From Desulfuromonas sp. TF (GTDB lineage Bacteria; Desulfobacterota; Desulfuromonadia; Desulfuromonadales; ATBO01): a stretch of DNA of 64,000 nt. Made by a program: the position numbers and the translations under genes. Location of the stretch: the NCBI RefSeq assembly GCF_000472285.1, contig NZ_KI421416.1, positions 12,032 to 76,031 on the forward strand. The letters are read 5' to 3'. A model generated the notes under the pieces. It saw only the letters and a list, made by a program, of their open reading frames with translations. It did not search any database and was not told the origin of the DNA. Shown piece after piece: positions 44,066 to 58,408 of the stretch (positions are counted from its first letter, which is position 1; every line of letters starts with the position of its first letter).

Positions 44066-44080
44066 GCAATAGGCGTGCCA
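44066..44080 (-). promoter_or_regulatory. Sigma-54 promoter of pilA
   Basis: On the minus strand: TGGCAC, five bases, TTGC (TGGCACGCCTATTGC), a full match to the RpoN -24/-12 consensus. Predicted transcription start is near 44054, giving a leader of about 68 bases before the pilA ATG. The adjacent pilS-pilR genes encode the expected RpoN activator. Confidence 0.9.
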
Positions 44081-44171: not shown

Positions 44172-44210
44172 TGTCCCAAGAATGTCAACCTGGCCTGACA
44201 ATAATTGTCA
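44172..44210. promoter_or_regulatory. Candidate PilR enhancer sites (TGTC repeats)
   Basis: Four TGTC/GACA words occur in 39 bases: TGTC at 44172, 44183 and 44206, and GACA at 44197. The last two form a perfect 15-base palindrome, TGACAATAATTGTCA (44196-44210). They lie about 118-156 bases upstream of the predicted pilA start, the distance expected for an RpoN enhancer. In Pseudomonas, PilR binds TGTC-containing repeats upstream of pilA. The palindrome overlaps the pilR stop codon. Confidence 0.55.
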
Positions 44211-45602
44211 CTCATCCTCCCCATCCGCATCAATCCCGAACTTCGCCAGCCGGTACCGAATCGAACGAAAGGTGATCCCCAGCAGCTCGGCCGCTCTCTT
44301 GCGCACCCCTCCTGTCCTGTCCAGAGCCTTGAGGAGGATGTCTTTTTCAATATCGCCGAGGTAGGCATCCAAGTCCAGGCCGGTTTCAGGGAGTTCGGTC
44401 ATGGGGCCGCCAGACTCCGGAGCCTGCCGCTGCAGGGAGAGGGGCAGGCACTCTTCGGTCAGCTCCTCGGAGTGGCTCAGGACCAGGCAGCGCTCGATGG
44501 CGTTTTCCAGCTCCCGGATGTTGCCGGGCCAGGGATAATCAAGCAGGCGACGCATCGCTTTTTCGGTGACCGTCACGGAATCCTTGCCCGATATTTTCCG
44601 GCAGAAGTGCTCAACGAGGAGGGGAATATCCTCGCGCCGCTCCCGCAGAGGGGGCAGCGCGACCTGGATGACGTTCAATCTGTAAAAAAGGTCTTCGCGA
44701 AAATCACCGGAAGCCACCTCGTCCTGCAGATCCTTATTGGTGGCAGCGACAAGACGGATATCGACCTGGATGTTCTTCGTCCCGCCCACACGGCGGAACT
44801 CCCTCTCCTGCAGCACGCGCAGCAATTTCACCTGCATCATCTGGGGAAGTTCGCCGATCTCATCCAGAAACAGGGTGCCTCCGTCGGCCACTTCGAAGAG
44901 ACCGGACTTCTGCTGGATGGCGCCGGTAAACGACCCCTTTTCGTGGCCGAACAGCTCGCTTTCGAGGAGATTCTCGGGGATCGCTCCGCAGTTGATGGGG
45001 ACGAAGGGCCTGTCGCGCCGCCCGCTGTTGTAGTGGATCGCCCGGGCCGCCAGCTCCTTCCCGGTGCCGCTTTCCCCTGTCACCAATACATTGGCGCTGC
45101 TCGCAGCGACCTTCTGGATGAGGTCGTAGACCACCTGCATGCTCTTGCTCTTCCCGACCAGCCCGGCGAAGGAGTAGCGCAGGCCCAGCTCTTTTTTCAG
45201 AGCGATATTCTCCTGACGAAGGGCCTTGCGCTCAAGTGCATTTTTGATGATCAGCCGGATCTCTTCATTCTTGAAGGGCTTGGTGATGTAATCGTAGGCC
45301 CCCTGCTTCATCGCCTCCACCGCCTCTTCGGTGGTGGAAAAGGCGGTGATCATGATCATGACCGTTTCGGGAGCACGTTCCCTGACATGGGCCAGAAGTT
45401 CAAGACCACCGACCCGGGGCATTTTGATATCACTGATGATCAGGTCGTAATCCTGCTCCTTCAGGCGCGCAATCGCCTGGGCTCCATCGGCGGCGGCATC
45501 GACGCGATACCCTTCCCGGTGCAGCATGATGGAGAGAAATTCCCGCATGCTCTCTTCATCGTCCACCAGAAGAATATGATATTTTTTCCGGTCACTGATC
45601 AT
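44208..45602 (-). CDS. pilR: Sigma-54-dependent response regulator PilR
   Basis: Activates pilA transcription with RNA polymerase-RpoN after phosphorylation by PilS. The 464-residue protein has a receiver domain (LLVDDEESMREFLS, phospho-acceptor in DLIISDIKMP, about residue 50), an AAA+ domain (Walker A GESGTGKELAARA near 177, the sigma-54 contact loop as GSFTGA, Walker B GGTLFLDEIGELP, R-finger YPWPGNIRELENA) and a Fis-type HTH (RKRAAELLGITFRSIRYRLA) at the C-terminus. A TTG five codons upstream is also in frame. It lies 96 bases after pilS. Confidence 0.95.
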   Translation of the reverse strand: MISDRKKYHILLVDDEESMREFLSIMLHREGYRVDAAADGAQAIARLKEQDYDLIISDIKMPRVGGLELLAHVRERAPETVMIMITAFSTTEEAVEAMKQGAYDYITKPFKNEEIRLIIKNALERKALRQENIALKKELGLRYSFAGLVGKSKSMQVVYDLIQKVAASSANVLVTGESGTGKELAARAIHYNSGRRDRPFVPINCGAIPENLLESELFGHEKGSFTGAIQQKSGLFEVADGGTLFLDEIGELPQMMQVKLLRVLQEREFRRVGGTKNIQVDIRLVAATNKDLQDEVASGDFREDLFYRLNVIQVALPPLRERREDIPLLVEHFCRKISGKDSVTVTEKAMRRLLDYPWPGNIRELENAIERCLVLSHSEELTEECLPLSLQRQAPESGGPMTELPETGLDLDAYLGDIEKDILLKALDRTGGVRKRAAELLGITFRSIRYRLAKFGIDADGEDE

Positions 45603-45698
45603 TGGCCATTTGTCCAATCCATTTATTAGTGCAGATCTTCAGAAAATCTATTGCCTTAGGCCTGATTCCTGCGACTCGATGCACGAGCTGAAGATTAG

Positions 45699-47360
45699 TT
45701 ACGAACCAGTTTTATCCTTGAACTCAGTCGTCGCATCCGGCAAATGAATGGAGAACCGGGCTCCGCCGGCGGGCGCCGTCGCAACCTCGATTCTGCCGCC
45801 GTGCGCTTCAACAATGGAGTACACTGTGGCCAGGCCCAATCCCGTTCCCCGCTCTTTCGTGGTAAAAAAGGGATCAAATATCCTGTCACGGATTTCCCCG
45901 GGGATGCCCGGTCCGGAATCCTCCACATAGACCGTCCTCGCATCCGGCGAGATGCCGAGGTGCATCGTGCCCTCTCCCTCCATCGCCTCGGCGCCATTGA
46001 TGACCAGATTCCACAGGGCCTGGCTGAACAGGCGGTGATCGAGATGCATCCTTCTCCCAGGCGGATATTCCCGGGAAATTTTTAAACCCGAGAAACGGGA
46101 ATCAGCAGTTATCATATCGGCCAGTTCATCCAATAGAATCGAAACGTCCACCGACTCGAAACGGGGAGGCGAGGGCCGGGCGAAAAGCAAAAAATCGGTG
46201 AGCAGATCGCTGAGCCTGTTCGCTTCCTTGACGACGATCCCCTTTAGACGGCGGTTTTCGTCGGTGAGGTGATCTCCTTCCATGAGCAGTTGAACCGAAC
46301 CGCTGATGGCTGCCAGGGGATTGCGTATCTCATGGGCCATGCCGGACGCCAGCTGTCCGACGGCGGCGAGTCGGTCGGCCCGATGGAGCTGCTCCTCGAG
46401 TTGTTTCACATGGGTGAGATCCTGAAACGTGATCAGGAGACCGAGGGTCTCATCCTGTGGATTCTTGATCAGGGAGGACGCGTAGCCGAGAACCCTCTGA
46501 GTTCCGCGCTGATCGGGAAAACGGCCCTCACCCCGGCTGATGACCCTGAACTCACCATTATACACCGCTAGATGGGGAAAAACCTCCCGCACCTCCCGGT
46601 CATAGACGTCCTGCAGAGAGTAGCCGGTGATCTTTTCAGCGGCGGCATTCCAGGACCGGATTCGCCCCCGCGAGTTGACGATCATCAGGCCGCTGCTGAT
46701 ATTGGACAGGATGGTTTGGTTGAGATTTTCCAGCTCCTCGTAATCGATTTCCTTTTTTTCCAGAGCAAGTTCGCTTCTACGCAAACGCTCCGCCAGGGTA
46801 CCGCTTAAAAGAGCGGTAAGGAGAAAGGCCAGGACGTTTACGAAGACCGCGAAGAAAACGTCCCGATCACTGATCTGCTCGGGGAAATACAACCCTCCGA
46901 CCAGGGGAAGGTACCCGTAATACTGAAGATCCAGGATACTGCCATAGAGAATGGCCGAAGCCGAGGCGACGAGCAGAACCTCTTTGCGGGTTAAAAAAAC
47001 ACTGGAGCTGATGATGACCAGAATAAAGAGAAAAGAGAAGAGACTCTCAATTCCGCCGGTCACGTAAATCAAGGAAGAAACGAAGAGCAGGTCCCATACA
47101 ATTTGGGCCTGGGTGAATAGACGCAGGCGACGGGTTAGAGGGAGAACCGAAGCTGATAGCAGCGCATACAGATAGGAGATGCCGACCAGCAGATAGAGAA
47201 AGGGCAATACCGGGTGGGGCTTCTGCAAGCCGCTGCGCAGCTGATAGACAATGGCTCCCCCCAGGAAAAGGGTAATGATCAGAACCCTGAAAAAGAGGAA
47301 CCACCTCAATTGCCTGCGAGAAGGATCTATCTTGAACTTTGAACCCGAGTCTTTCCCCAT
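45699..47360 (-). CDS. pilS: Sensor histidine kinase PilS
   Basis: Inner-membrane sensor that phosphorylates PilR; in Pseudomonas it responds to PilA level in the membrane. The 553-residue protein has six hydrophobic segments (about 18-195), a PAS domain (about 220-325, ILSNISSGLMIVNSRGRIRS), a HisKA domain with the phospho-acceptor His in GMAHEIRNPLAAISGSVQLL (about 340) and a HATPase domain (WNLVINGAEAM N-box, DSGPGIPGEIRDRIFDPFFT, GTGLGLATVYSIVEAHGG). The ATG at 47360 follows the pilC stop by eight bases; a longer frame lies inside pilC. Confidence 0.94.
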   Translation of the reverse strand: MGKDSGSKFKIDPSRRQLRWFLFFRVLIITLFLGGAIVYQLRSGLQKPHPVLPFLYLLVGISYLYALLSASVLPLTRRLRLFTQAQIVWDLLFVSSLIYVTGGIESLFSFLFILVIISSSVFLTRKEVLLVASASAILYGSILDLQYYGYLPLVGGLYFPEQISDRDVFFAVFVNVLAFLLTALLSGTLAERLRRSELALEKKEIDYEELENLNQTILSNISSGLMIVNSRGRIRSWNAAAEKITGYSLQDVYDREVREVFPHLAVYNGEFRVISRGEGRFPDQRGTQRVLGYASSLIKNPQDETLGLLITFQDLTHVKQLEEQLHRADRLAAVGQLASGMAHEIRNPLAAISGSVQLLMEGDHLTDENRRLKGIVVKEANRLSDLLTDFLLFARPSPPRFESVDVSILLDELADMITADSRFSGLKISREYPPGRRMHLDHRLFSQALWNLVINGAEAMEGEGTMHLGISPDARTVYVEDSGPGIPGEIRDRIFDPFFTTKERGTGLGLATVYSIVEAHGGRIEVATAPAGGARFSIHLPDATTEFKDKTGS

Positions 47361-47370
47361 GCCGAAGTCA

Positions 47371-48588
47371 TTACCCGCCGACCGCGCCGGCAAGTTTGAA
47401 TATCGGGAGGTACATCGCGATAACCAGCCCACCGACTGTTGTACCGAGGAAGAGCATGAGCAGCGGCTCCATCATGGCGGTAAGATTGCCCACGGCGTCA
47501 TCGACTTCGTCGTCATAGAAGTCGGCGATCTTGTTGAGCATGGTGTCGAGCGCGCCGGCCTGTTCACCGACGGAGATCATCTGACAAACCATGGGAGGGA
47601 AAACCCCGGAACTGGTCAAGGGCTCCGCGATCGTCTTGCCTTCACTGATGCTCTGCTTGACCTTGTAGATAGCTTTTTCCACCGTCTTGTTGCCGGCCGT
47701 CTTGGCCACGATATCGAGGCCGTCGAGGATCGGCACGCCGCTGGACATCATCGTCCCCAGAGTGCGGGTGAATTTTGCGACCGCCACCTTACGGATCAGG
47801 ACACCGAAGACAGGAAGTTTAAGAGCAAAGTCATCAATGACCTCCCGACCTTTCTTGGTCCGGTAGATGCGCTTGAATCCGACGATTAATGCTACGATGG
47901 CACCTATGATCGCCAGGATATAATCCTGGATGAAATTGCTGAGATTTATAACGATGACAGTCGGTGTCGGCAGGGCACTGCCGAAATCCTCAAACATCTT
48001 AGAGAACTGAGGAATGACGAAGACCAGAATGACCGAGATGACGAGGACGGCAATTGCAACGATCGTGGCCGGATAGGTCATGGCGCTCTTGACCTGCTTC
48101 TTCAGCTTGAGGGCCTTCTCGATATAGGCTGCCAGGCGATTCAAGATGGTATCGAGAATTCCCCCCACTTCCCCCGCCGCCACCAGGTTGACATAAAGTT
48201 CGTCGAAAGCTTTAGGATGCTTTTTCAGAGCGTCGGCGAAGGTGGAGCCCGACTCCACGCTCTCCTTCACTGTGGTGAGAATTTTTTTGAATGTCTTGTT
48301 GTCCTGCTGCTTGCCCAGGATGTCGAGGCATTGCACCAGCGGCAGTCCCGCATCGATCATGGTGGCGAACTGGCGGGTGAAGACAACCAGGTCCTTGGTA
48401 GTGACTTTGGGCTGCATGCCGGGGATCTTTATCTCCACGTCCAGCCCCTTGCCCCGAGCCTTGATCTTGGATGGCATGATCCCCTGGCGCCTCAGTTGGG
48501 CTGTGACCACGGCCTCGCTGGCTGCCTCCATGTCGCCTTTCTGTATTGCGCCGGTGCGGGTCTTACCTTCCCAGGAAAACTTGGGCAT
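47371..48588 (-). CDS. pilC: Type IV pilus inner-membrane platform protein PilC
   Basis: Polytopic platform on which PilB and PilT act. The 405-residue protein has the two duplicated GspF domains: VVFTRQFATMIDAGLPLVQC (about 69-88) and KFTRTLGTMMSSGVPILDGL (about 275-294), three to four transmembrane helices (AIVALIV and TTVGGLVIAMYLPIF regions) and the conserved VGEQAGALDTMLNKIADFY near the end. ATG at 48588 with a GAGGTG site. Confidence 0.96.
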   Translation of the reverse strand: MPKFSWEGKTRTGAIQKGDMEAASEAVVTAQLRRQGIMPSKIKARGKGLDVEIKIPGMQPKVTTKDLVVFTRQFATMIDAGLPLVQCLDILGKQQDNKTFKKILTTVKESVESGSTFADALKKHPKAFDELYVNLVAAGEVGGILDTILNRLAAYIEKALKLKKQVKSAMTYPATIVAIAVLVISVILVFVIPQFSKMFEDFGSALPTPTVIVINLSNFIQDYILAIIGAIVALIVGFKRIYRTKKGREVIDDFALKLPVFGVLIRKVAVAKFTRTLGTMMSSGVPILDGLDIVAKTAGNKTVEKAIYKVKQSISEGKTIAEPLTSSGVFPPMVCQMISVGEQAGALDTMLNKIADFYDDEVDDAVGNLTAMMEPLLMLFLGTTVGGLVIAMYLPIFKLAGAVGG

Positions 48589-56110: not shown

Positions 56111-57457
56111 TTACTCCGCCTTCTCTCCTTCGGCGATCTTGTTGATGACCAGGCCGGTGAGAAGCTTGGGATAGAAATAGGTCGACTTCTGGGGCATTTT
56201 TTCCCCGGCGTTGGCCACGTCGCGCACTTCGCTCATGCGGGTGGCATTCATCAGAAAAGCAAGCTGGAACTCTCCGTCCTGAACCAGCTCGAAAGGATCG
56301 TCGAAATTCTTGACGTATTTCAGATTGGTCTGCTGTTCCTGGGCTTCGGGGGTGATATTCAGCAGATTCTCGAGAATGAGACGGTGCAGAATTGAGACGT
56401 CGAGAGTGCGCAGAGCCTTGGGAGCCTTCTCGTCAAAAAAGCGGTCCATGATGCTCTCGTCCCGCAAAATCAGGAAGTACAAAGTCTCCCCGCCGGCGAA
56501 AAGAGACAGGACGTGCCTTCCCTCCCCCTTCTCCTGCAGAATCCGGCGAGCCTCCCGGCGGGCTTCGGGATCCCGGGGATCGATCGTCCACGTCTCCACC
56601 TCGAAAAATTCCTCCAGTGCGTTAAGAAAGGGTGGGAGGCTGAAGTCCGTCAGATTGAAAAGGAGGCGGTGAGTGGGAAAAATAAGCATTCCCTGGTCTT
56701 CCATATTGGCAAAATACATCAGGACATAATTGAACAGTTCTTTTCCCGTGTAACCCGGATGATTCTCCCGCATGTGATTGCGGTAGTTGATGGCGGTTTC
56801 ATAGCGGTGGTGGCCGTCGGCAATGAAAAGCGGCTTGCTGTCGAGGAGGTCCTGCGCCTTCTGCTGGATACCAGAATCGGTTACCCGCCATAGCCGGTGC
56901 TTCACCCCGTCGTCGTCGGTGACCTCCAGGTCCGGACCGCGCTCCTTCTCCTTGCGGGTCAGCGACTCGAGGACGCAGCAGGGATCGGAATAGAGGGAGA
57001 ATATGGGGCTGAAATTGGCGGAGCAGGCCTTGGTCAGGTGCAGGCGGTCTGTCTTGGGACCGGCGAGCGTCTTCTCGTGAGGCTTGACCACCCCTGAGGA
57101 GAAGTCCTCGATGCGGGTCAGAGCCATGAACCCCTTGCGCACCACCGTCTCGCCATCCTCGAGGGGATATTCCTGGTCGTAAAGATAGAGGGAGGGCTCG
57201 GAATCGCGCACCAGCACCCCTTCCTCCTGCCATTTCCGGAAATCGGCGGCGGCGCGTGTATACCTGTTGTCCGTCTCGCTGTCCCCCTCACCGGTCTTGC
57301 CCAGGATGAGCCGCACGACATTATGAGGGTCACGCCGGTAAAGCTCCTCCTGCAGCGTCGGAGAAATCACATCGTAGGGGGGCGCCATGACGCGCTCAGG
57401 GTTCCCGATTTTGGCGGGATTGTAACGCAAAGCACGAAAAGGAACGATTTTGGCCAT
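56111..57457 (-). CDS. DUF1015 family protein
   Basis: A 448-residue soluble protein of the DUF1015 family. It begins AKIVPFRALRYNPAKIGNPE, has PYDVISPTLQEELYRRDPHN (about 27-46), GVVKPHEKTLAGPKTDRL and the signature LFIADGHHRYETAINYRNHM (about 210-229). A ParB-like fold and, in a few archaeal relatives, serine kinase activity have been reported for this superfamily; the function in bacteria is not established. GAGGGAG ribosome site; predicted promoter at 57496-57524. Confidence 0.85.
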   Translation of the reverse strand: MAKIVPFRALRYNPAKIGNPERVMAPPYDVISPTLQEELYRRDPHNVVRLILGKTGEGDSETDNRYTRAAADFRKWQEEGVLVRDSEPSLYLYDQEYPLEDGETVVRKGFMALTRIEDFSSGVVKPHEKTLAGPKTDRLHLTKACSANFSPIFSLYSDPCCVLESLTRKEKERGPDLEVTDDDGVKHRLWRVTDSGIQQKAQDLLDSKPLFIADGHHRYETAINYRNHMRENHPGYTGKELFNYVLMYFANMEDQGMLIFPTHRLLFNLTDFSLPPFLNALEEFFEVETWTIDPRDPEARREARRILQEKGEGRHVLSLFAGGETLYFLILRDESIMDRFFDEKAPKALRTLDVSILHRLILENLLNITPEAQEQQTNLKYVKNFDDPFELVQDGEFQLAFLMNATRMSEVRDVANAGEKMPQKSTYFYPKLLTGLVINKIAEGEKAE

Positions 57458-57524: not shown

Positions 57525-57798
57525 GGGAAAAGCTAAGTAGAATGAATCTGAACACAGGGGGAAGCAAGACATGCAGCTATAAAACCAGGGGGGTGAGAAT
57601 GAATCGTGATTGGAAGCCCTAATGACCCTCGTGACAAATAAGGGCACACGAAACCGCTAAATCGCCACCTACTTACACACGCAAAGAAAAAGCTGATGTT
57701 AATTCCTTTATGGTGTATCCCGACAATTACTGAGTGCCTACTGATAAATCCTTTTAAATTGAGGAGTAATCTTGGAATCCAATGAGTCCGTTTGAGTA

Positions 57799-57813
57799 TG
57801 GCACTAGAATTGC
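57799..57813 (+). promoter_or_regulatory. Sigma-54 promoter of the exported-protein gene
   Basis: TGGCACTAGAATTGC: the full TGGCAC-N5-TTGC pattern, with the same hexamer and tetramer as the pilA promoter. The predicted start near 57825 leaves a leader of about 68 bases before the ATG at 57893, again like pilA. A GACAATTACTGA word lies about 75 bases upstream. Confidence 0.85.
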
Positions 57814-57892
57814 TGAATAATTAAAGCGATGAATGCAAGATAGAATGCCCAAATAGATCATATTTTTTCACACCCACTGACCAGGAGGCATG

Positions 57893-58345
57893 ATGAAAAC
57901 CGCCAAGATGAAGATCATCCCCATTTTCCTAGTTTCCTTGATGATGGTTTTTGCTGGACAGGCTTTTTCCGAAACCATTGCTCTCTTTGGACCAAAGGTT
58001 TTCAAAAAGGAAAAGGGTGCTCCGGTCGCCTACACTGACCGCTTCATAGTTCCGCCTGGAGCGGGAAATTTCCGACTGCTTGTCAAGAATGGCGAAGGTG
58101 ATTCCGGCGAAGTCAAGAATCTTTCCATCATGATCAATGGCACGGAAGTCATATCTTCATCGGATTTACGCCCCACTCCCATGGCCATGAAGCAAATCAC
58201 GCTTCAGCCTGAAAACGAGATCAAGATCACCCTCAAAGGGCAGGGAGGCAATGCGGTTTTCGTGCAATTGGACGGCGATGTTCTCGTGGCCGAACCAACA
58301 GAACCAGCTCCGCCCATGCCGCCGTCACCGCAGATGCCTGACTGA
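57893..58345 (+). CDS. Small exported protein of unknown function
   Basis: A 150-residue protein with a signal peptide (KIIPIFLVSLMMVFAGQAFS, cleavage after Ala-Phe-Ser) and a compact beta-rich body: TIALFGPKVFKKEKGAPVAY, TDRFIVPPGAGNFRLLVKNG, NLSIMINGTEVISSSDL and ITLKGQGGNAVFVQLDGDV, ending in a Pro-rich tail. I recall similar GPK/VKNG-bearing beta domains in secreted Geobacter proteins but cannot name a function. Start 57893 is preferred over ATG 57890 because AGGAGG ends four bases before it. The only plus-strand gene in the window and the only one outside the pil genes with a sigma-54 promoter. Confidence 0.78.
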   Translation: MKTAKMKIIPIFLVSLMMVFAGQAFSETIALFGPKVFKKEKGAPVAYTDRFIVPPGAGNFRLLVKNGEGDSGEVKNLSIMINGTEVISSSDLRPTPMAMKQITLQPENEIKITLKGQGGNAVFVQLDGDVLVAEPTEPAPPMPPSPQMPD

Positions 58346-58374: not shown

Positions 58375-58408
58375 TTAAAAAGGGCCGGCATTTACCGGCC
58401 CTTTTTAA
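58375..58408. terminator. Bidirectional terminator between convergent genes
   Basis: TTAAAAAGGGCCGG (58375-58388), a six-base loop, CCGGCCCTTTTTAA (58395-58408): a perfect 14-bp stem with a T-run on each strand. It lies between the exported-protein gene (plus) and the fimT-like gene (minus), so it can serve both. Confidence 0.9.

Follow-up and report, generated by a model that had tools for sequence, protein, structure and literature searches.

Results and Discussion

The gene at 57893-58345 probably belongs to the set controlled by PilSR and RpoN and, judging from its promoter, its candidate enhancer and its predicted product, would encode a secreted surface protein that is co-expressed with type IV pili. 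The window, meaning the whole 64-kb stretch of DNA that was analyzed (G000:C5:12032-76031, from a 4.4-Mb genome whose family had no second representative in the comparison set), contains a type IV pilus cluster made up of pilB, pilT, pilC, pilS, pilR, pilA, a separate second pilin gene and a minor-pilin/PilY1 set, all of it on the minus strand. Here pilS, pilR, pilA and the PilY1-like protein were assigned by family matches and the remaining pilus genes by sequence reading. As claimed in a preliminary description of this DNA, the target is the sole plausible plus-strand gene across the 64 kb, and it converges with the minor-pilin operon on a common terminator, a perfect 12-bp hairpin with T tracts on both strands (z −5 to −6) that lies between the convergent genes. 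The SD sequence AGGAGG at 57883-57888 favors the ATG at 57893, which gives a protein of 150 amino acids, over the ATG at 57890. The features discussed below are the following.

57632-57646, no strand assigned: candidate PilR enhancer TGACAAATAAGGGCA (matrix score 16.2; three such positions in 863 kb)
57799-57813, plus strand: sigma-54 −24/−12 core TGGCACTAGAATTGC (exact consensus)
57825-57892, plus strand: predicted 68-nt leader with SD sequence AGGAGG (read from the sequence; +1 predicted)
57893-58345, plus strand: gene for the exported protein of 150 amino acids (alternative ATG at 57890; homologues found)
57893-57970, plus strand: probable Sec signal sequence of 26 amino acids, cut after AFS, no lipobox (read from the sequence)
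57971-58282, plus strand: beta-sandwich domain (AlphaFold model, pLDDT 77; profile matches)
58283-58342, plus strand: Pro-rich C-terminal tail (read from the sequence; also in the G009 homologue)
58377-58406, no strand assigned: two-way hairpin terminator common to the target gene and the convergent minor-pilin operon (hairpin analysis)
44066-44080, minus strand: sigma-54 core of pilA, for comparison (exact consensus)
44196-44210, minus strand: enhancer palindrome of pilA TGACAATTATTGTCA, for comparison (enhancer matrix)
44208-45617, minus strand: PilR, NtrC-type activator and presumed regulator (family match)
45699-47432, minus strand: PilS sensor kinase (6TM_PilS, PAS, HisKA and HATPase; family matches)

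A Probable Sigma-54 Promoter and Its Predicted Leader

The site at 57799-57813 is very likely a sigma-54 promoter. The exact pattern TGGCAC-N5-TTGC occurs only twice in the window, at 57799-57813 on the plus strand and before pilA at 44066-44080 on the minus strand, which agrees with the two full promoters counted previously; at the target gene GG-N10-GC is present and the exact core is followed by T. The whole genome contains 23 exact matches, compared with 5 for a reversed-pattern control; several of the 23 are intergenic before co-oriented genes, and others lie inside genes. On a −24/−12 matrix built mostly from the pilA promoters of other genomes, the target core scored 17.2, with only 7 of 1.73 million positions (863 kb of the genome) as good; when the 432-bp intergenic region was shuffled by dinucleotides, 0.06% of the shuffles reached this score (p 0.0006). 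Given these figures and the PilR-type enhancer upstream, it is very improbable that the −24/−12 match arose by chance and that an ordinary sigma-70 promoter reads the gene, even with a TTGAGT-N18-AATAAT match overlapping the core (57792-57821), such matches being at chance level. One rpoN gene was found in the genome. The divergent minus-strand gene at 57457 was also searched for a sigma-54 core, and none was found.

Transcription from the predicted +1 at 57825 would produce a leader of 68 nt up to the ATG at 57893. The pilA leader of this genome is likewise predicted at 68 nt, matching the estimate of about 68 bases made earlier for both promoters, and the distance from TGG to ATG is 94 bp at both genes. 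Leader length varies among the pilA genes of the order, however, and the likeness therefore carries little weight.

The pilA Enhancer Across the Order

The pilA promoters of the order have in common a palindrome, TGAC-N7-GTCA (typically TGACAAAATTTGTCA), located about 71-140 bp, and in some cases 191-249 bp, before the −24 element. An enhancer score of at least 12 was found in 55 of the 58 pilA promoters with a recognizable core, a count that comes from related genomes and so does not represent 55 independent observations, and in which L036 was measured from the wrong core. Distances between enhancer and core group by helical turn, with a best period of ~10.9 bp (R 0.69). In the pilA upstream regions L034-L063 and L129-L166 they cluster near 104, 115, 126 and 137 bp, and many of these promoters have a second enhancer-like copy ~22 bp, or two helical turns, from the first. 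A strict enhancer-plus-core pattern had a match in 26 of 134 genomes, at most one per genome, and none in the reversed control; the matches are mostly pilA, those at L175, L181 and L187 look like chance occurrences inside genes, and the one at L172 stands before a different small exported protein (see below).

In the genome studied here the pilA palindrome scores 22.5 and is located 123 bp upstream. It overlaps the stop codon of pilR, so that the pilA operator is built into the end of the gene for its regulator.

A Candidate PilR Enhancer Upstream of the Target Gene

An enhancer matrix was built from 20 pilA sites, excluding that of this genome, and scanned over 863 kb of it. Three positions scored at least 16.2 (about one per 290 kb), namely the target site at 57632-57646, the pilA palindrome and one site without a core, and only the target and pilA sites are accompanied by a sigma-54 core no more than 260 bp away. 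The third site, TGACGAAATGGGTCA at L123:14825 (G000:C2:334825), scored 17.4, and neither of its flanks has a sigma-54 core within 260 bp. The score of the target site was reached in 20 of 20,000 shuffles of the 230 bp upstream, and the shuffle p was 0.0022 over the entire 432-bp intergenic region. Read as its reverse complement, TGCCCTTATTTGTCA, the site is identical at every letter to the pilA enhancer of a genome of another family (G010, L132), a sequence absent from the training set. On a first matrix, in which the pilA site of this genome was included, the best upstream score among the remaining 21 exact cores, all outside the window, was 7.7, compared with 14.5 at the target. A combined enhancer-plus-core pattern for this genome had been loosened to admit the target, with ~0.5 chance matches expected, and was not used as a test.

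The target site differs by one letter from TGAC-N7-GTCA. Its center lies 160 bp upstream of the TGG, ~1.5 bp from the pilA phase peak at the best-fitting periods, at a spacing for which the pilA set has no example (141-190 bp); this is also longer than the 100-140 bp usually given as the distance between an enhancer and an RpoN promoter (PMC7962754). No second enhancer copy was seen by eye 22 bp to either side of the site, and a search for an IHF site between enhancer and core gave only a match with two mismatches. The sequence that had originally been likened to the palindrome near the pilA enhancer, GACAATTACTGA at 57722-57733, was rejected as an operator, since it is a half-site only, with a matrix score of −1.1. 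The proposal that the gene is a candidate member of the PilSR/RpoN regulon is supported through the candidate operator at 57632-57646 instead, as the recurrence of a pilA-type enhancer there and before the stand-alone homologue in G009 (see below) backs it.

PilR or Another Activator

PilSR/RpoN control of pilA is known in Geobacter, Pseudomonas and Myxococcus. The target gene resembles this system in having a sigma-54 core, an enhancer palindrome of the same type, the leader length of its own pilA and nearby PilS and PilR genes. It differs in that the product is no pilin and in that the enhancer departs by one letter from the palindrome core and lies 160 bp upstream, compared with 123 bp at pilA. 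In G. sulfurreducens, pilA is controlled by PilR from an RpoN promoter (PMC2725144), and a PilR regulon was predicted at 54 loci, according to the account of that work in a later paper (Krushkal 2010, as described in PMC6058289). The PilR regulon of P. aeruginosa also reaches beyond pilA (PMC6058289). As in these regulons, which already hold PilR-controlled genes besides pilA, a second PilR gene here would add to a known kind of regulon.

We consider control of the target gene by PilR likely. PilR from the pilSR pair ~12-14 kb away would bind TGACAAATAAGGGCA at 57632-57646 and, through a loop of ~160 bp, would activate RNA polymerase-sigma-54 at 57799-57813, the same action that it would exert on pilA through TGACAATTATTGTCA. 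The product, a single beta-sandwich with a Pro-rich tail, would be exported by Sec and would most likely act beyond the inner membrane, at the cell surface, on matrix polysaccharide or on the pilus, during pilus production.

It is improbable that this true sigma-54 promoter is driven by another NtrC-type activator, with a PilR-like site present by chance and a protein that answers a different signal. Potential activators are numerous, with 41 AAA+ activator-domain matches in the genome (38-39 of them strong), one of them in a kinase/activator pair upstream of the minor-pilin operon, ~8 kb away; nevertheless, none of the other activators compared matches the HTH of PilR (best 19 of 47 residues identical, no close paralogue), and an exact stand-in for PilR is therefore not evident. 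The spacing of 160 bp falls outside the pilA clusters and would suit another activator, but a chance origin of the site is opposed by its density of ~1 in 290 kb, by the shuffle p of 0.001-0.002, by its identity with a pilA enhancer elsewhere and by the PilR-type site that also precedes the G009 homologue.

The pair upstream of the minor-pilin operon consists of a histidine kinase and an NtrC-type activator at G000:C5:77768-80667 (65737-68636 on the scale of the window, ~1.7 kb past its end). It lies directly upstream of the minor-pilin/PilY1 operon, is distinct from PilSR and is possibly a separate regulator of the minor pilins.

A Stand-Alone Beta-Sandwich Protein

The gene encodes a single, free-standing copy of an unnamed beta-sandwich module that is usually N-terminal in large exported Ig-type proteins. 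Its preliminary description as a secreted, beta-rich protein of 150 residues fits both the predicted beta-sandwich and the Sec-type signal sequence read from the sequence. The mature part is without cysteine. Assignment as a type IV pilin or minor pilin was rejected, as the N-terminal prepilin methylation motif (PF07963) is absent and an ordinary Sec-type signal sequence is present instead. In Pfam and NCBIfam searches no model covered the protein.

The domain, with the pattern FGP ... G-P ... NG ... LNG ... DF, was detected in 33 of the 395 genomes sampled from the phylum. It is usually found in large exported proteins, immediately behind the signal peptide, and sometimes in tandem; many of these proteins have Ig-type repeats. 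Homology of the target with this N-terminal domain, in proteins of the same phylum and of a Nitrospiria contig, is clear; the fused homologues reach E ~1e-44 when scored with the family profile, and in most of them a signal peptide precedes this domain. Unlike in these large proteins, the domain of the target stands alone with a short Pro-rich tail.

AlphaFold predicted an eight-strand beta-sandwich (pLDDT 77, pTM 0.63; three sequences). The fold matches are common beta-sandwiches, including collagen-binding/PPC domains, carbohydrate-binding modules, BcsB and GH86 C-terminal domains, and no one of them stands out clearly from the others (best Foldseek E 2e-3; VIA Z 8.8, 2.6 Å over 88; many unrelated rows tied). 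Membership of BPA_C by sequence was rejected at 12.1 bits against a curated cut-off of 26.2 (E 0.22). The target is like BPA_C, CBM35-36 and the PPC collagen-binding type in being a beta-sandwich with a weak BPA_C match and with GH86, CBM and PPC chains among its fold matches, but the strength of these matches is only that of a common arrangement. On a plain reading, the protein would be a binding module.

Homologues and Their Promoters

Within the order, the domain is present in 14 of 136 genomes, and the only other stand-alone homologue found there (G009, L011) is 32% identical to the target and also ends in a Pro-rich tail. The 254-bp intergenic region before it contains a PilR-type site, TGACAAAGATTGACA (16.3, shuffle p 0.0011, on a matrix from which the pilA site of G009 itself was omitted), together with a second partial site. 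A weak GG-N10-GC core, AGGCTCGTTTTTTGCA (p 0.076), would give a leader of ~72 nt, and the distance of 89 bp between enhancer and core is off phase. Neither such a core nor an enhancer near this score was found before the homologues in which the domain heads longer proteins, and stand-alone homologues in the more distant family f81 have neither core nor enhancer. Only the stand-alone copies of the order seem to be linked to PilR, and these are few (two cases). Scans with the protein as query gave no matches in genome contigs, in viral contigs or in plasmids, a profile scan of genome contigs returned two loci only, and a domain sequence of the same class was matched by one Geobacteraceae contig, from which the class is probably Desulfuromonadia.

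A comparable arrangement was observed on the reverse complement of L172 (G065:C12), where a PilR-type enhancer, TGACGTAAATTGTCA at 1501, and a core, TGGTACGATCGTTGC at 1615, precede an open reading frame at 1676-2122. Its product is a different small exported protein of 148 amino acids that starts MKSLVQVLTVTI, has no Pfam family above cut-off and is unrelated to the target protein. It may be another non-pilin target of PilR.

Possible Role at the Pilus

No homologue examined adjoins pilus genes, and the neighborhoods are not pilus loci; we infer an action of the protein with the pilus against this background and that of the f81 stand-alone copies without the signals. A pilus-specific job for the protein is a real possibility, if somewhat short of an even prospect. 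It may equally be, and here too we stop short of calling it probable, that PilR/RpoN control is real and that the protein takes no direct part in the work of the pilus, being a general surface- or matrix-binding module, the gene for which acquired a PilR site by chance in this lineage. The homologues are consistent with such a module, as they are N-terminal parts of unrelated large exported proteins, and so are the genomic neighborhoods and the f81 copies just mentioned; two families of the order nevertheless retain a PilR-type site upstream of the stand-alone form, and this points to use with pili.

A role with the pilus could be taken further, in a tentative scheme that we regard as rather unlikely. 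The stand-alone secreted family would then consist of single N-terminal modules freed from giant surface proteins and captured by PilR, and would serve as a partner dedicated to the Geobacter-type (split PilA) pilus or its matrix. The PilR-type promoters on small exported non-pilins, that is the target, the G009 homologue and the unrelated 148-amino-acid protein of G065, would represent an extracellular arm of the pilus regulon.

The enhancer matrix, with its helically phased matches in 55 of 58 pilA promoters, offers a means of listing PilR targets across the order. The extracellular function of Geobacter-type pili is disputed, and the proteins expressed alongside them are poorly listed. Standing by itself away from the pilus operons, and having the type of enhancer and promoter used by the pilin itself, the gene at 57893-58345 is a direct and cheap candidate for an extracellular factor made at the time of the pilus.
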